Under the pieces are notes generated by a model that did not search any database, was not told the origin of the DNA, and saw only the letters and a list, made by a program, of their open reading frames with translations. Below are positions 1 to 5,150 of a DNA stretch of 64,000 nucleotides, piece by piece. Numbering within the stretch: position 1 is the stretch's first letter; every line of letters begins with the position of its first letter. Source of the DNA: Flavobacterium tibetense (GTDB taxonomy: Bacteria > Bacteroidota > Bacteroidia > Flavobacteriales > Flavobacteriaceae); assembly GCF_003293845.1 (NCBI RefSeq), contig NZ_QLST01000001.1, forward strand, positions 1 to 64,000, written 5' to 3'. A program made the translations under genes and the position numbers.

Positions 1-62
1 TGCACCGAAATCGGTGGTCAATTTAGACTGGAAAGTGGTGGTCAATTTGACCGTTTTTTCCA
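1..62. mobile_element. Probable end of an IS21-type insertion sequence (partial, left edge)
   Basis: Two exact 12-bp copies of GGTGGTCAATTT lie at 13-24 and 37-48, 24 bp apart, and the sequence opens with TGCACCG. Repeated GTGGTCAATTT-type motifs near the ends are familiar from IS21-family elements of Bacteroidota; that link is from memory. No transposase gene is inside the window; istA/istB would lie to the left. The end stops exactly where the duplicated leader of the peptide cassette begins (about 63), so the insertion may have trimmed this copy. Confidence 0.4.
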
Positions 63-167
63 AGTTAAATGTGAAATGGAAATTTTGTTTTTGAAATTTT
101 TTATACCAAATTCGCCCTTGGTTAACCAAAAACAAAATATTAATTTTAAAAATTTAAAGAATTTATG
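63..167 (+). repeat. Leader region, copy 1 of a duplicated promoter/5' region
   Basis: About 100 bp here match 1346-1441 at roughly 90 percent identity, ending in an ATG at 165 that aligns with the start codon of the second peptide gene (1439). The conserved block includes a TTGG palindrome at 118-129. In this copy the ATG at 165 is followed after six bases by a 47-bp insertion (171-217). It therefore now opens a 15-codon reading frame that ends at the TGA at 210-212. Confidence 0.8.
118..129. promoter_or_regulatory. 12-bp palindrome, candidate operator (copy 1)
   Basis: TTGGTTAACCAA is a perfect palindrome. The second leader has TTGGTATACCAA at the same place: both central bases on each side differ, yet perfect symmetry is kept. 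An upstream ACCAA (about 104-108) also faces the TTGGT. Symmetry kept despite changed bases suggests a protein-binding site, but no regulator can be named. Confidence 0.4.
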
Positions 168-208
168 AAATCGAAGATTCACGAACACCAAAAAAACAAT
201 AATAATTC

Positions 209-475
209 GTGAGTAAAAAAATGATTTTTAGTGCAGTAGCACTAGTAGCGTTTTCATTTGCTGGAATGGCGAATGAAATTGAGGATAAAAAACTAATTGA
301 TGAAACAGAATTGGTAAATTGTGATCATTGTTATGCTTATGCTGATTCATTAGATGACGGAAGTGATAGAACAAATCAAACATGGATGAGAAATGTTGAT
401 GCGTGCAGAACATCTAATGGATGTGAAGCTGAATTCGCAGGATTAATCAAAAAAAAGAGCATAACAGCTGTATAA
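209..475 (+). CDS. Small secreted Cys-containing peptide (copy 1)
   Basis: 88 residues with an N-terminal signal peptide (SKKMIFSAVALVAFSFAGMA, probable cleavage before NEI). The mature part of about 67 residues has four cysteines, including a CDHC pair. The leader is nearly identical in DNA and protein to the paralogue at 1439, but the mature parts are almost unrelated. I do not recognise a family. The GTG at 209 is preferred because it keeps the KK charge of the paralogue's signal; the ATG at 221 would remove it. The GTG overlaps the stop of a short upstream frame (165-212), so translation may be coupled. A strong hairpin follows, then a GLPGLI gene. Function unknown; expected periplasmic or secreted. 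Confidence 0.7.
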   Translation: MSKKMIFSAVALVAFSFAGMANEIEDKKLIDETELVNCDHCYAYADSLDDGSDRTNQTWMRNVDACRTSNGCEAEFAGLIKKKSITAV

Positions 476-481
476 ATCAAC

Positions 482-505
482 AAAAGCTATCTTCGGATAG
501 CTTTT
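482..505 (+). terminator. UUCG-tetraloop hairpin between peptide and GLPGLI genes
   Basis: A perfect 10-bp stem (482-491 with 496-505) closes a TTCG tetraloop, ending in TTTT, 7 nt after the peptide stop codon and 16 nt before the next start. The second cassette has a different hairpin in the same place. It probably attenuates downstream transcription or stabilises the peptide mRNA. Confidence 0.8.
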
Positions 506-520
506 ACTTAAAATATTAAA

Positions 521-1237
521 ATGAAAATATTTATCTTTTTTATTTCTGCAATATCAATAACATTCGCTCAAAATAACGGCAGAGTAACCTATAAATCTTT
601 TTTTTCAGAAACTGAGGCTACTGAAGAATTAAAAGCAAACAACAGAATGCTTTATCAAGAAAAAATAGATGAAGAAATGATGGCAAAACTATTGCGCTTC
701 TCACTAGACTTCAATAAAGATGAATCTATATTTTATTTGTCTGAAAGTATGATTTCTGATGCAGAAGATGTTTCAACCAAAAAGTATGTTACAAGTTTGT
801 TTTATGGGTATGATAAAATCTATATAAATAAAAAAGAGAATCTTTTAGTTGAAGAATTGCACTACAATTTTGGTACTATCTTAAAAAAAAGAGAAGCAAA
901 TTTTATTAATTGGGAATTAAAAAATGAATCAAAAATTATAAATGGATATTTGTGTTACAAAGCTACTTACACCTATATCCAAAAATGGAAAGGCAGAGAA
1001 TTTCCATGGAAAATAGTAGCTTGGTATTGTCCTGAAATTCCATTTAATTATGGACCAATTCGTTATAGTGGGTTACCTGGAATGATTTTTGAATTGTCTG
1101 AAAAAAATAAAGGTTACATTGTAGAAAAAATTGAATTTTTTAATAATCCCCTTTCTATACAAGTACCTAATGAAGGAGAGGAGTTTACAGATGAAGAAAT
1201 TAAAAAAAGACAGAGTATCATTAGAGAAACCAATTAA
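521..1237 (+). CDS. GLPGLI family protein (copy 1)
   Basis: 238 residues with a signal peptide (FFISAISITFAQ) and the signature near the C-terminus SGLPGMIFEL, preceded by AWYCPEIPFNYGP, which mark the Bacteroidota GLPGLI family. These proteins are exported, of unknown function, and often sit next to CarboxypepD_reg/TonB-type receptors, as the second copy does here. It resembles the protein at 1748 throughout (shared NESKxI..Y.CxKATxxY and AWYCPEIP blocks). The receptor gene that should follow is reduced to a stub at 1271. Confidence 0.85.
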   Translation: MKIFIFFISAISITFAQNNGRVTYKSFFSETEATEELKANNRMLYQEKIDEEMMAKLLRFSLDFNKDESIFYLSESMISDAEDVSTKKYVTSLFYGYDKIYINKKENLLVEELHYNFGTILKKREANFINWELKNESKIINGYLCYKATYTYIQKWKGREFPWKIVAWYCPEIPFNYGPIRYSGLPGMIFELSEKNKGYIVEKIEFFNNPLSIQVPNEGEEFTDEEIKKRQSIIRETN

Positions 1238-1270
1238 TTAGAAAATCTAAAAGAAAACTCGCAATTCTAA

Positions 1271-1330
1271 ATGCCAAAATCCCTTTTCCTACTATCCCCT
1301 GTTATTTTTTTAAAAAAACATATGGTATAG
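1271..1330 (+). pseudogene. 5' remnant of an outer-membrane receptor gene
   Basis: The stretch from about 1262 (caattctaaatgccaaaatcc) is almost identical to the start of the intact receptor gene at 2490, including the bases just before the ATG. The frame reads MPKSLFLLSPVIFLKKHMV and then stops. Nothing else of the receptor is visible; the second cassette's leader begins about 16 bp later. The best reading is that an ancestral peptide-GLPGLI-receptor unit was duplicated and the first receptor was deleted. Confidence 0.75.
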
Positions 1331-1345
1331 TTTTTCTATACTTTT

Positions 1346-1441
1346 AGTTAAATGTGAAACCGATATTTTGTTTTTGAAATTTTTTATACCAAATTCGCCC
1401 TTGGTATACCAAAAACAAAGTATTAATTTTAAGAATTTATG
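1346..1441 (+). repeat. Leader region, copy 2 of the duplicated 5' region
   Basis: Matches 63-167 and ends at the ATG of the second peptide gene. This copy has no 47-bp insertion, so it is probably the ancestral arrangement. The block carries the 12-bp palindrome at 1401-1412. No clear TAnnTTTG promoter element was found in either copy. Confidence 0.8.
1401..1412. promoter_or_regulatory. 12-bp palindrome, candidate operator (copy 2)
   Basis: TTGGTATACCAA is a perfect palindrome 26 bp before the ATG, equivalent to the TTGGTTAACCAA of copy 1. Palindromy is preserved although the central bases differ. Confidence 0.4.
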
Positions 1442-1696
1442 AAAAAAATGATTTTTAGTGCAGTTGTACTAGTAGCATTCTCATTTGCTGGTATGGCGAA
1501 TGAGATTAATGAAAAAGTTGAAACAAACAGAAAAGTAATTGCTAAAAGTTTTATGACAACTGACTGTGACAAATTAGCTAACGATACTATGGATGTTTAT
1601 GAAGCGGCAGGTTGGACAGTTGAAGAAGCATATGAAAAAGGTCTTGAAGTTTACAATGTTTGTATTGGTAAAACAAAAAAAGTCACTTTAGAATAA
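1439..1696 (+). CDS. Small secreted Cys-containing peptide (copy 2)
   Basis: 85 residues. The signal peptide KKMIFSAVVLVAFSFAGMA is followed by NEI, as in the paralogue at 209. The mature part has only two cysteines (TTDCDKL and YNVCIGK) and little similarity to copy 1. A conserved export leader with a diverged mature part suggests diversifying evolution of the exported portion. It is followed by a hairpin (1708-1734) and a GLPGLI gene. No family recognised; function unknown. Confidence 0.75.
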   Translation: MKKMIFSAVVLVAFSFAGMANEINEKVETNRKVIAKSFMTTDCDKLANDTMDVYEAAGWTVEEAYEKGLEVYNVCIGKTKKVTLE

Positions 1697-1707
1697 TCTT
1701 TTAATAC

Positions 1708-1734
1708 AACAACCCAAGAGATTCTTGGGTTGTT
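1708..1734 (+). terminator. 12-bp hairpin between peptide 2 and GLPGLI 2
   Basis: A perfect 12-bp stem (1708-1719 with 1723-1734) with a 3-nt loop lies 11 nt after the peptide stop and 13 nt before the next start. No long U-run follows. The sequence is unrelated to the hairpin at 482, but the position is the same. Confidence 0.75.
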
Positions 1735-1747
1735 TAAAACAATGTAA

Positions 1748-2449
1748 ATGAAAGCATATACCATACTTGTATTTTTTCTTTATTTTAATTATAGTAATAG
1801 TCAAAATAATACTATAACTTATAATTTTAAAATTCTTGAGGATAAACAATTACTGAATAACGAAGTTATTGGCAAAATGTATAGAGAAGATATGGAAGGA
1901 GCAAAATATTTAAATTTCCGTTTAATTTTTAGAGATACTATTGCAAAGTTTGAAAACACCCAATTAACCGAATTAGATGGAAAAAACGCAAAAGGTGCTC
2001 TAAATATGAGTAGATGTCGAAAAAAAATTATAGTTTATAAAGATAGTATTTATCAGAATAATGCAGAAGGTGCATTTAAAGAAAATCAATATTTAATAGT
2101 AGAACCAATTGAAAAGAAATGGAACTTAACGAATGAATCCAAAAAAATTGACAAATACACCTGCTTTAAAGCTACAACTGAATATATTGTAATTAATTCT
2201 AAGGGCACGTTTATTCATCCAGTAATTGCTTGGTACTGTCCTGAAATTCCATATCAATATGGTCCTGCTGGTTATGGTGGTTTACCCGGAATGATATTAG
2301 AATTACAAGAAAGAAACAATGTCTTTGGAGCTGTAAAAATTGAATTAAAAACACCTTCAGAAAATATTCAAATCCCTAAAAAAGGAATAAAAATTTCTCA
2401 TCAAGAATATCAAAATTTATTTTTAAAATTACCAAGATCAGGATTTTAG
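1748..2449 (+). CDS. GLPGLI family protein (copy 2)
   Basis: 233 residues with signal peptide (ILVFFLYFNYSNSQ) and the signature GGLPGMILEL preceded by AWYCPEIPYQYGP. It is exported. It is paralogous to the protein at 521, and directly precedes the outer-membrane receptor gene (40-nt gap), the usual GLPGLI-receptor pairing. The function of the family is not established; a role with the receptor is inferred only from context. Confidence 0.88.
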   Translation: MKAYTILVFFLYFNYSNSQNNTITYNFKILEDKQLLNNEVIGKMYREDMEGAKYLNFRLIFRDTIAKFENTQLTELDGKNAKGALNMSRCRKKIIVYKDSIYQNNAEGAFKENQYLIVEPIEKKWNLTNESKKIDKYTCFKATTEYIVINSKGTFIHPVIAWYCPEIPYQYGPAGYGGLPGMILELQERNNVFGAVKIELKTPSENIQIPKKGIKISHQEYQNLFLKLPRSGF

Positions 2450-2489
2450 TATTGTTAATAAGAAAAAATCCTAAAAATCACAATTCTAA

Positions 2490-5150
2490 ATGCCAAAATC
2501 CCTAATCCTTTTCTTACTTTTCCCCATTCTTTCTTTTTCCCAAACTTTAATTGGTACGGTGAAAGATACATTGGGTAATCCGTTGCAAAATGCTAATGTT
2601 ATTGCTAAACCTTTACTAGAAAAACAAGGCTTAAAATTTGCTATTGCCGATCATCTGGGTCGGTATAAGTTAGAACTTGAAAAAGATGTCCCGTATGAAG
2701 TGCGTGTTTCTTACTTAGGTTTTCAAGAAGAAATTTTAAATCTTCCTGCTAATTTTACACAAAAAGAACACCATTTTAAATTAGCAGAAACCGGTCAGGA
2801 ACTCAAAGAAATTACCATTACGTATGATTACCAACCCGTTGTAGTAAAAAAAGATACGCTAATTTATGATGTTAAAGCGTTTACCACAGGAAACGAACGC
2901 AAACTCAAAGAGCAACTAGAAAAACTACCCGGCGTTGAAGTAGATAAAAACGGAGGCGTTACCGTTCAAGGTAAAAAAGTAACCAAGTTTTTAGTCGAAG
3001 GTAAATCGTTTTTTGGTGGTGGTACCAAATTAGGCGTAGAAAATATTCCTGCTGATGCCGTTGATAAAGTAGAAGTTCTTGATAATTTCAACGAAGTAGG
3101 TTTTCTTAAACAAGTCTCTGATTCTGATGATTTGGCTATGAACATCAAGTTGAAAGAAGAAAAAAAGAAGTTTATCTTTGGTGATATTGAAGCTGGTGCA
3201 GAAGTAGTTGATGATAATGGATTTTATCTTGGTCATGCTGCTTTGTTTTATTATGCACCAAAAACCAATGTTAGTTTCATTGGCGACCTCAACAACATTG
3301 GCAAACGCACCTTTTCCTTTGAAGACATGATGCGTTTTCAAGGTGGCGCAAGCAGTTTTATTTCAGGCAGAAGACAATTGACTAATTTATACTCTTTTGC
3401 TTCAGATAATACCGATGTTTTAGAAAATAAATCACAATTTAGCGCCATCAACTTTCGTAGAGAAATCAATTCTAAACTTGATGTAGAAGGTTTTGGTATT
3501 TTTTCAAAGCTTTTCACTACTACTTTACGAGAAAGTCAAATCGAATACTTGCAAAACAATGCGTTCACCTTTGAACAACGCACCAATACAGCGGAAAATA
3601 GAGCGGTTTTAGGTATTGGAAACATCAAACTGAACTATTCGCCTAACAAAAAAGCAAAAATGTTTTATAACGGCCAATTTCAAGCGAGCAACAACGACAA
3701 CAGTAGTATGCTTAATTCGGTTCGTGATGGCAATGCTATTTCTTTTGAAACTTTGAATGAAATTGACAACATTCAAATCAAGCAATTTGTAGAATGGCAC
3801 AAGCAAATCAACAACAAACACACCACTACTTTAGTGGTTAACCAAAGCTACGACAACAACAAACCACAAAACACTTGGCTTACCGATACGGAATTTTTAA
3901 CCGGATTAATTCCATTGGAAAATGATTCGTTTTATAACATTCAGCAAATCAAAAAAGTACAGAATAATTCCATTGATGCGTTGTTTAAACATTATTGGAT
4001 TGTCAATAATTTCAATCATTTGTATACCAACATTGGAAATAATTTTGGTACTACAAAACTGGATATTTCCGAAAAGCAATTCCTAACCAATGGCACGATA
4101 AACGATTTTGCGGAAAATGGTTTTGGTAACAACATGAATTATTTTTTAAATGACTTCTTCGTTGGTTTGGAATACAAATTTAAAATAGGGAAATGGGTCA
4201 ACAAACCAGCGTTGTATTCGCATTTTTTCTATTTGGAAACCCAACAAGTAACCAATGATTACAAAATTACAACCCATTTATTGGAACCCAAATGGCATAG
4301 CGAATACGAATTCAACCAATCCGAAAGTTTGAAATTCGATTACCAATTATCAAATACGTTTCCCGAAGCTTCTCAGTTATTGGAACGATTTACCTTGCAA
4401 AATTATAATTCGGTTTTTAGAGGAAATGCGTTACTTAGAAATGAGCGTTTTCACAGTGCTGTTTTACGCTACAACAAAACCAGTATGTATCGTGGTTTAA
4501 TGATCTTTGCCAATGCCAGTTTCAACAAAAAAGTAAGAACCATAAGAAACGATGTGGAACTTTTAGGCATTGACCAATTTACCACACCAACCATCACCGA
4601 TAATCCTGAAACCAATTGGCGCGCGACAGGAACCATTGAAAAAAGAATTCACAAATTCAGAGCGAGTTTGAATGCGAATTTGAGTTGGTTCAACTATGTA
4701 CAAACGGTGAATAACACTACAACAACAAACGACAGAAACAATCAAAGCATTGGTGTAAGAGTACGAACGGCAAACAAAAAATGGCCTGGAGCAAGTGTGA
4801 GTTATAACAAATCGTTCAGTCAGTTTTCAGGATTGACGCAATCTAGTTTAACTTCAGATAGAATTGGATTGGATTTAGATATCGATTTTTTAAAGCATTT
4901 TAACTTCAAAACCGATTACCAAATTACCTACAACGAAGACAGTAACAACCAAAAAACCGATTTCAGTATTGCCAACGCGTTTTTAAGCTACCAAAAGAAA
5001 AATAACCCTTTTAGATTTGAATTATCCGCACAAAATTTCTTGAACAATGGCGTAAAAATCAACAACAGTTTTTCTGACTTCATGATTTCAAACACCACAA
5101 CATTCATTTTACCAAGAATTGTAATGTTGAGCGTGAGTTATAAGCTTTAA
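2490..5150 (+). CDS. TonB-type outer-membrane beta-barrel receptor with CarboxypepD_reg domain
   Basis: 886 residues. A signal peptide (about 1-18) is followed by a carboxypeptidase-regulatory-like beta-sandwich (about 19-100; LIGTVKDTLGNPLQNANV). Next comes a plug-like region (about 105-205; LEKLPGVEVDKNGGVTVQG, IPADAVDKVEVLDNF), then a long barrel ending in VMLSVSYKL. This is the architecture of Bacteroidota TonB-dependent-like transporters. It should bind or import a ligand across the outer membrane; the ligand is unknown. It forms a unit with the GLPGLI protein and perhaps the peptide upstream. A sense-oriented member of the intergenic stop-codon repeat family lies 9 nt after its stop (5160-5181). 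Confidence 0.88.
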   Translation: MPKSLILFLLFPILSFSQTLIGTVKDTLGNPLQNANVIAKPLLEKQGLKFAIADHLGRYKLELEKDVPYEVRVSYLGFQEEILNLPANFTQKEHHFKLAETGQELKEITITYDYQPVVVKKDTLIYDVKAFTTGNERKLKEQLEKLPGVEVDKNGGVTVQGKKVTKFLVEGKSFFGGGTKLGVENIPADAVDKVEVLDNFNEVGFLKQVSDSDDLAMNIKLKEEKKKFIFGDIEAGAEVVDDNGFYLGHAALFYYAPKTNVSFIGDLNNIGKRTFSFEDMMRFQGGASSFISGRRQLTNLYSFASDNTDVLENKSQFSAINFRREINSKLDVEGFGIFSKLFTTTLRESQIEYLQNNAFTFEQRTNTAENRAVLGIGNIKLNYSPNKKAKMFYNGQFQASNNDNSSMLNSVRDGNAISFETLNEIDNIQIKQFVEWHKQINNKHTTTLVVNQSYDNNKPQNTWLTDTEFLTGLIPLENDSFYNIQQIKKVQNNSIDALFKHYWIVNNFNHLYTNIGNNFGTTKLDISEKQFLTNGTINDFAENGFGNNMNYFLNDFFVGLEYKFKIGKWVNKPALYSHFFYLETQQVTNDYKITTHLLEPKWHSEYEFNQSESLKFDYQLSNTFPEASQLLERFTLQNYNSVFRGNALLRNERFHSAVLRYNKTSMYRGLMIFANASFNKKVRTIRNDVELLGIDQFTTPTITDNPETNWRATGTIEKRIHKFRASLNANLSWFNYVQTVNNTTTTNDRNNQSIGVRVRTANKKWPGASVSYNKSFSQFSGLTQSSLTSDRIGLDLDIDFLKHFNFKTDYQITYNEDSNNQKTDFSIANAFLSYQKKNNPFRFELSAQNFLNNGVKINNSFSDFMISNTTTFILPRIVMLSVSYKL

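Follow-up and report, generated by a model that had tools for sequence, protein, structure and literature searches.

Arrays of small putative secreted peptides, each paired with a GLPGLI-family protein, upstream of a shared outer-membrane receptor gene in Flavobacterium

The window analysed here, that is, the whole stretch of 64,000 nucleotides forming the first 64 kb of contig C1 (NZ_QLST01000001.1) in the 2.74 Mb genome assembly of Flavobacterium tibetense (GCF_003293845.1), begins with two tandem units, E and F, each composed of a gene for a small peptide followed by a gene for a protein of the GLPGLI family, and both lying upstream of one receptor gene (positions 63–5150). The initial annotation of this DNA had described the same tandem layout and had put the identity of the two leaders and signal peptides at about 90%, which agrees with our comparison of the upstream blocks and with the single residue that differs between the signal peptides across KKMIFSAV..MANE. 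A 60-bp remnant of the receptor gene that it placed between the units is real, though shorter, and receptor stubs of 44–119 codons lie between units at other loci. The features, by window position, are:

1–62, no strand assigned: end of an IS21-like insertion element at the contig edge, the remainder being on contig C34; AGTTAA on both sides
63–156, forward strand: promoter/5' block of unit E, 93% identical to 1346–1439 over 94 nt
118–129: palindrome TTGGTTAACCAA of unit E, within the preceding block
165–212, forward strand: putative short upstream open reading frame (ORF) (MKSKIHEHQKNNNNS), read from the sequence, inside an insertion; its stop overlaps the likely GTG start of peptide E
209–475, forward strand: peptide E, Sec signal peptide and mature part with four Cys
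521–1237, forward strand: GLPGLI E, cognate partner of peptide E (TIGR01200, 126.6 bits)
1254–1290, forward strand: receptor-gene-start stub between units E and F, 89% identical to 2473–2509 over 37 nt
1346–1439, forward strand: promoter/5' block of unit F, with palindrome TTGGTATACCAA at 1401–1412
1439–1696, forward strand: peptide F, signal peptide and mature part, Cys at 43 and 75
1748–2449, forward strand: GLPGLI F (TIGR01200, 128.3 bits), predicted LolA/RseB-like half-barrel
2490–5150, forward strand: outer-membrane receptor, predicted TonB-dependent transporter fold, N-terminal CarboxypepD_reg domain

The array continues beyond the edge of the contig. Eight TIGR01200 matches were found in the source genome (two in the window, four on C34, one on C54 and one on C12), and the four on C34 sit at the contig end, pointing outward; read in reverse, C34 finishes with 63 bases identical to window positions 1–63. 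An IstB_IS21 match (C34:1748–2485, E value 6e-70) lies in an element that spans approximately positions 1–2650 of C34 (L009; numbers of this form denote loci) together with window 1–62. This IS21-like element is inserted in the promoter of unit E, and the assembly breaks there. Read across the two contigs, the joined array comprises six GLPGLI genes, five peptide genes (one of them broken) and one receptor gene, split by the IS21-like element, in the order response regulator, A, B, C, D, IS21, E, F, receptor. The peptide gene of unit A has TTG at its start and an in-frame stop, its GLPGLI gene being intact; units B and F are intact, units C and E have GTG starts, and unit D consists of a GLPGLI gene without a peptide gene. 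The join between C1 and C34 is supported by synteny, because six relatives (L084–L089: F. aquaticum, UBA6195, F. sasangense, F. cheniae, F. odoriferum and F. fragile) carry an array with one to four GLPGLI genes at the same chromosomal site, enclosed by the genes of the C34 side (S41 peptidase, OmpA) and those of the window side (GNAT, DUF4837, LysM/SLT, PGK). Only the GNAT side is present at L159, where the upstream part is cut. At L094, GNAT adjoins OmpA without a called array in between, and the array there is found on the far side of PGK; the chromosomal site is therefore not fixed. In L083, a very close relative whose receptor is 98% identical, the 5.1-kb contig runs directly from an intact A-like unit through a C-like unit to the receptor gene, so that array content evidently changes quickly.

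Arrays of this kind recur across the genus. A profile built from the four peptides of the source genome matched 64 of 299 Flavobacterium genomes (E value ≤0.01), matches to the signal peptide only included. From these matches 40 peptide-anchored loci were picked by hand, and 38 of them have a peptide, a GLPGLI and a receptor match (fragments only in L065; the exceptions are L076 and L082). Among 80 receptor-anchored loci, the best 80 of 144 relatives found by a receptor scan, 64 have one or more peptide genes, a GLPGLI gene and the receptor gene in this order. The two samples overlap, with 28 of the 40 loci on contigs that, to judge by their length, are also among the 80, and some loci are partly dependent: near-identical units occur in L097, L100 and L120, L104/L107 and L128/L133 each come from a single genome, and L085 and L086, with 60 differences over 4461 positions, code for one and the same peptide (L086 was dropped from some counts). 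The recurrence of the order at 64/80 and 38/40 loci excludes chance, and the occurrence of leader and peptide next to GLPGLI genes in other genomes, proposed in the initial annotation as the thing to search for, is established. Of the 16 receptor-anchored loci without a called peptide, seven (L113, L117, L134, L147, L149, L159, L162) are truncated at the GLPGLI or receptor gene or immediately above it, two (L111, L140) have peptides that are degraded or weak, and an F. psychrophilum locus (L138) has a receptor match but lacks any called GLPGLI or peptide within 10 kb upstream. At the others a GLPGLI gene and a receptor gene stand without a peptide (L124, L146, L151, L154, L160, L161), L161 having a small Cys-containing ORF before one GLPGLI gene. 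A GLPGLI–receptor pair without a peptide gene is also present on contig C54 of the source genome (L011, 8087–11765) and is perhaps an older form.

Outside the genus the profile matched 84 of 397 genomes of the family and 36 of 196 of the order; these matches mostly cover the signal-peptide end of the model only and, as such, were not counted as members, while a few weaker ones (e.g. G424, G557, G434, G436) span the model. All eight out-of-genus matches with an E value below 1e-5 that span model positions 1–77 or more have a GLPGLI gene directly downstream; one of them (L164) is on the same contig as L152, and seven are new. As a separate observation, two adjacent peptide genes precede one GLPGLI gene in L091, L092, L093, L101, L106, L130, L153 and L156, and in L106 and L130 two peptides are followed by two GLPGLI genes, a possible two-peptide arrangement that would fit a toxin–immunity or another reading alike.

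The mature peptides of E and F do differ in having four and two Cys, respectively; they are not ‘nearly unrelated’, as had been supposed, and both share a two-Cys scaffold. Every one of 93 full-length peptides (of 107 units) has at least two Cys in its mature part (two in 63, three in 13, four in 16 and seven in one), and neither Cys varies across 75 aligned peptides, which had been selected for at least two Cys. The spacing between them is 31 in 33 of the 63 two-Cys peptides (range 25–38), and in the same 63 a Gly is found at C1+15 in 39, an Ala at C2−11 in 35 and a Tyr at C2−3 in 30; the mean net charge of the peptides is −4.5. The structural model shows two helices, residues 43–56 and 61–75, running from the first Cys to the second. 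The mature peptides make up one structural family, an acidic two-Cys scaffold predicted to form a two-helix hairpin. We read the constant leader, which ends AGMA/NE, as an ordinary Sec signal peptide. A leader serving as a dedicated recognition sequence was rejected, the signal-peptide and promoter DNA being kept alike within arrays, and the leader sequence does not fit a double-glycine bacteriocin or class II microcin leader. Searches of 75 peptides against Pfam and NCBIfam gave scattered weak matches only, the commonest being to the PG1828 lipoprotein (15/75, best E value 5e-5; limited to residues 1–25 in peptide F), and the peptide had no match in the PDB. The ratio of non-synonymous to synonymous substitutions (dN/dS) within allele classes is mostly 0.1–0.5 for the mature part and 0.1–0.35 for GLPGLI in 39 overlapping pairs, apart from two near-identical pairs, where it is 1.0, and some pairs in which dS is saturated; the corresponding pooled ratios of polymorphic differences (pN/pS) are 0.42 and 0.34, and that of the signal peptide, 0.55, arises partly from uneven trimming of some starts. 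Such purifying selection argues that the peptides are real genes and makes it unlikely that they go untranslated.

Similarity within and between arrays separates the parts of a unit. In a comparison of 54 within-array pairs with 600 sampled pairs, in which three of the four units of the source genome were cut a few bases off (touching 6 of the 54 pairs), promoter DNA (120 nt) has a similarity of 0.75 within arrays versus 0.64 between them and signal-peptide DNA 0.83 versus 0.70, whereas the mature part (0.59 versus 0.57) and GLPGLI (0.63 versus 0.63) show no within-array excess. The GLPGLI gene adjoins the peptide ORF in 120 of 122 cases; for the remaining two (L118, L157) a frame scan shows a GLPGLI gene there as well, the call of its ORF having begun too far upstream. 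Beside the 45 best between-genome peptide matches, which were drawn from the 107 units with several from the same few alleles, GLPGLI similarity is 0.727, compared with 0.346 ± 0.039 for within-array swaps (0/2000). In 13 comparable allele pairs the GLPGLI similarity is 0.79, versus 0.20 when other units of the two genomes concerned are paired, and the signal-peptide identity 0.78 versus 0.65, a peptide being tied less to its own signal peptide than to its GLPGLI; the exceptions are three pairs with similar peptides and dissimilar GLPGLI (including unit E of the source genome versus L083) and four pairs with the reverse. This allele-pair comparison delimits the cassette as mature peptide plus GLPGLI, which, judged by its alleles, moves between species as one piece; the peptide F allele, for example, is also present in F. 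cheniae (L087). The left border of the cassette lies mostly inside the peptide gene; the right one is close to the start of the receptor gene, remnants of which stay there as stubs. The first suggested trio of constant leader, hypervariable peptide and receptor does recur in many genomes, with two corrections: the leader reads as a Sec signal peptide, and each peptide has its specific partner in its GLPGLI rather than in the receptor, which in most arrays is single.

Peptide and partner are lost unequally. Intact GLPGLI genes without an upstream peptide gene number 54, against 119 with a peptide gene in any state, and in 23 cases the gap to the preceding GLPGLI gene (≤101 nt) leaves no room for a peptide gene. 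A match (normalised score >0.45) to a GLPGLI paired with an intact peptide in another genome was found for 22/54 of these orphans and for 41/99 of the paired GLPGLI, so the orphans are drawn from the same pool; relatives of GLPGLI E of the window occur as orphans in L084, L092 and L093. Among 132 peptide matches (L086 included, L096 counted twice as two pieces), with a start test applied to the peptides only, peptide and next GLPGLI gene are both intact in 108, defective and intact in 21, both defective in one, defective with no GLPGLI in one, and intact and defective in one; this agrees with a toxin–immunity module, in which the effector is not found without its partner and the partner may stand alone. 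When the same start test was applied to both genes, the start was missing in 12/127 peptide genes versus 1/174 GLPGLI genes (Fisher P 2e-4). Start-only lesions account for 17/23 defective peptides under a strict rule (P 2.8e-9; 10/16, P 5.8e-5, with likely repeats merged) and for 12/19 under a lax rule accepting starts up to codon 6 (P 8.9e-6; 8/15, P 1.4e-3, with likely repeats merged), the share expected from substitutions alone being 0.17. Affected genes have ATA, ACG or a stop in place of the start codon, or an insertion has displaced it; the peptides of L118 and L150, which have an in-frame ATG at codon 4, may be active.

The GLPGLI family is TIGR01200/Pfam PF09697 (Porph_ging), and both window proteins lie above the curated cut-offs (50 bits for TIGR01200). 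In the model of GLPGLI F the predicted local distance difference test score (pLDDT) is mostly >90, and the best solved-structure match is the N-terminal bowl domain of PNGase F-II (PNGF-II; Z score 13–14); VioE, LolA (Z 7.9) and RseB (Z 7.1) follow with scores such as common arrangements reach, LolA and RseB falling short of the tool's caution level of 8. The predicted GLPGLI fold is a LolA/RseB-like half-barrel, a shape in which LolA and RseB themselves accommodate lipoproteins or peptides. A fused peptide–GLPGLI model has a predicted template modelling score (pTM) of 0.77, exceeding the approximately 0.65 estimated for GLPGLI alone, with the peptide helices at pLDDT 82–96 in blocks of ten, and probably places the hairpin against GLPGLI, in a single fused model of one pair. 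The model of the receptor (pLDDT 84, pTM 0.76) matched Cir, FhuE, FhuA, FecA and BtuB in Foldseek with E values of 4e-14 to 4e-17 and probability 1.00, at TM scores of only 0.32–0.50 and a root mean square deviation >13 Å, and by this predicted fold it is a TonB-dependent transporter, a plugged outer-membrane β-barrel. Among ten receptor members scanned against Pfam, CarboxypepD_reg was found at the N terminus of all ten, Plug in two (best E value 0.033) and OMP_b-brl_3 in one (E value 1e-4). PDB sequence searches with GLPGLI and with the receptor gave no match. No ABC exporter or modification enzyme was noticed among the few genes scanned beside the array of the source genome, where no systematic search for them was made.

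Our working hypothesis, to which we give somewhat less than an even chance, is that the arrays hold a repertoire of secreted peptide toxins, each with a cognate periplasmic GLPGLI immunity protein, and a shared transporter. We favour it because the peptide is not found without its partner, the partner is often found alone, the pair is exchanged between species and one constant gate serves all. The small peptide would leave the cytoplasm by Sec and fold into a disulfide-closed two-helix hairpin; the periplasmic half-barrel of its own unit would bind and neutralise it; and the TonB-dependent transporter encoded at the array end would move peptides across the outer membrane, in one direction or the other. 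Recombination, both within the constant promoter/signal-peptide block and at the start of the receptor gene, would add and remove units, and peptides that do harm or serve no purpose would be silenced or discarded while the protective GLPGLI remains. Where the initial annotation had suggested a signalling, bacteriocin-like or ligand-capture system, the retention pattern, with GLPGLI genes left without peptides and peptide starts lost, favours the bacteriocin/immunity option over the other two.

Several observations weigh against this hypothesis. The peptides are acidic on average, an intact peptide precedes a frameshifted GLPGLI gene in L121, and a transporter encoded by the producer itself is unusual for a toxin. 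Frame lesions per gene are alike in the two partners (7/127 peptide genes versus 7/181 GLPGLI genes, P 0.58; about fourfold per kb), and the loss bias therefore rests on the lost starts and the orphan GLPGLI genes; some start-less peptides may be read from other codons, and some orphans may represent an older gene. Indeed, the GLPGLI–receptor pairs without a peptide (C54; L124, L146, L151, L154, L160) suggest that GLPGLI has a role older than the peptides. Close linkage alone, moreover, makes peptide and GLPGLI travel together.

The alternative that survives best, although we consider it unlikely, is that GLPGLI is a dedicated LolA-like periplasmic carrier which shields the peptide and passes it to the shared transporter, the peptides being surface or extracellular factors and not toxins. 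The predicted fold, the strict pairing and the presence of GLPGLI beside the receptor even where there are no peptides are all in keeping with such a role, yet a carrier deprived of its cargo should decay, and 54 intact GLPGLI genes lack a peptide gene and 21 stand beside a defective one. Ranking below it, and improbable in our judgement, is a peptide acting as a ligand or pheromone, with GLPGLI and the TonB-dependent protein as a cognate uptake or sensing system, together with a nearby response regulator. The response regulator on C34, which has a receiver match and a weak LuxR-type helix–turn–helix match, does have counterparts: such a gene lies at or near the array in the source genome and in L060, L084–L086, L088, L124 and L160 (L059 is the same contig as L084). 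Promoters also share a palindrome, TTGGTTAACCAA, which with up to two mismatches lies upstream of 44/125 peptide genes, compared with 2.7% of random 120-mers, at 36–47 nt before the start or at 86–94 nt where there is an insertion. However, a BLAST search with the regulator of the source genome found it in only 6/80 receptor-anchored loci (L084–L086, L088, L124, L160), one receptor is common to many different peptides, and GLPGLI stays while peptides are lost. A search of the source genome for the palindrome gave 94 sites versus 48 for a reversed control, too many for it to be specific. That the peptides block or modify the transporter itself, for instance to keep out phages or colicin-like agents, and owe their diversity to that of the attackers, is very improbable: variable peptides do face one conserved TonB-dependent protein closing the arrays, and the list of fold matches contains transporters with an exclusion lipoprotein or a phage protein, but the receptor is conserved, with 42–81% identity to that of the window.

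A toxin–immunity repertoire can be compared with several known systems. The predicted GLPGLI fold resembles the bowl domain of PNGase F-II and the half-barrels of LolA, RseB and MucB, and in the arrays every GLPGLI protein goes with a particular peptide of its own. Class II microcins with TonB-dependent uptake, such as microcin V with Cir, likewise combine a small secreted peptide, a small partner gene and an outer-membrane protein of the same fold; in contrast, the peptides described here have a Sec signal peptide in place of a double-glycine leader, are arranged as a cassette array and have the transporter encoded in that array. In polymorphic toxin/orphan immunity arrays (contact-dependent growth inhibition, Rhs) a variable effector with its cognate partner follows a constant upstream part and the partner is kept without the effector, whereas here the constant part is promoter and signal peptide only, the effector a peptide of about 60 residues and the partner LolA-like. 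Silent-cassette systems (pilE, vlsE) have intact start-less cassettes beside started ones, with common flanks; in the present arrays, by contrast, no single expression site was identified. We nevertheless offer the rather unlikely conjecture that copying of the start block from a neighbour could reactivate silent cassettes that lack a start and have kept their frame, with GLPGLI as the specificity partner of a new class of inter-bacterial peptide weapon.

We found no account of a peptide–GLPGLI–receptor system in the open-access literature searched, outside which lie bioRxiv and most subscription journals, in keeping with the remark in the initial annotation that such a trio had no described function, and no function for the GLPGLI family in the same literature. 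GLPGLI genes are listed among the regulated genes in two papers (PMC8757827; PMC9603813), and several are reported as direct PhoP targets in Riemerella anatipestifer (PMC9603813). The one-to-one pairing with a small peptide is a first concrete and testable role for this curated Bacteroidota family. Should the toxin–immunity hypothesis be true, the arrays would represent a widespread, undescribed class of inter-bacterial peptides in Flavobacterium and a new immunity fold; even if it is not, they exchange exported peptides between species while promoter and export signal stay local.

One further observation concerns the starts of the peptide genes. Peptide E has no ATG at the usual position; a 47-bp insertion carries the short upstream ORF, and GTG 209 is the likely start. 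A similar insertion is present in L097, L100, L110, L126 and unit C of the source genome and, by motif, also in L096; several species have a peptide start shifted by inserted DNA that carries a conserved short upstream ORF (MKS[KQ]IH..). At 0–1 mismatch the motif occurs at only two sites in the source genome, both of them within the array.

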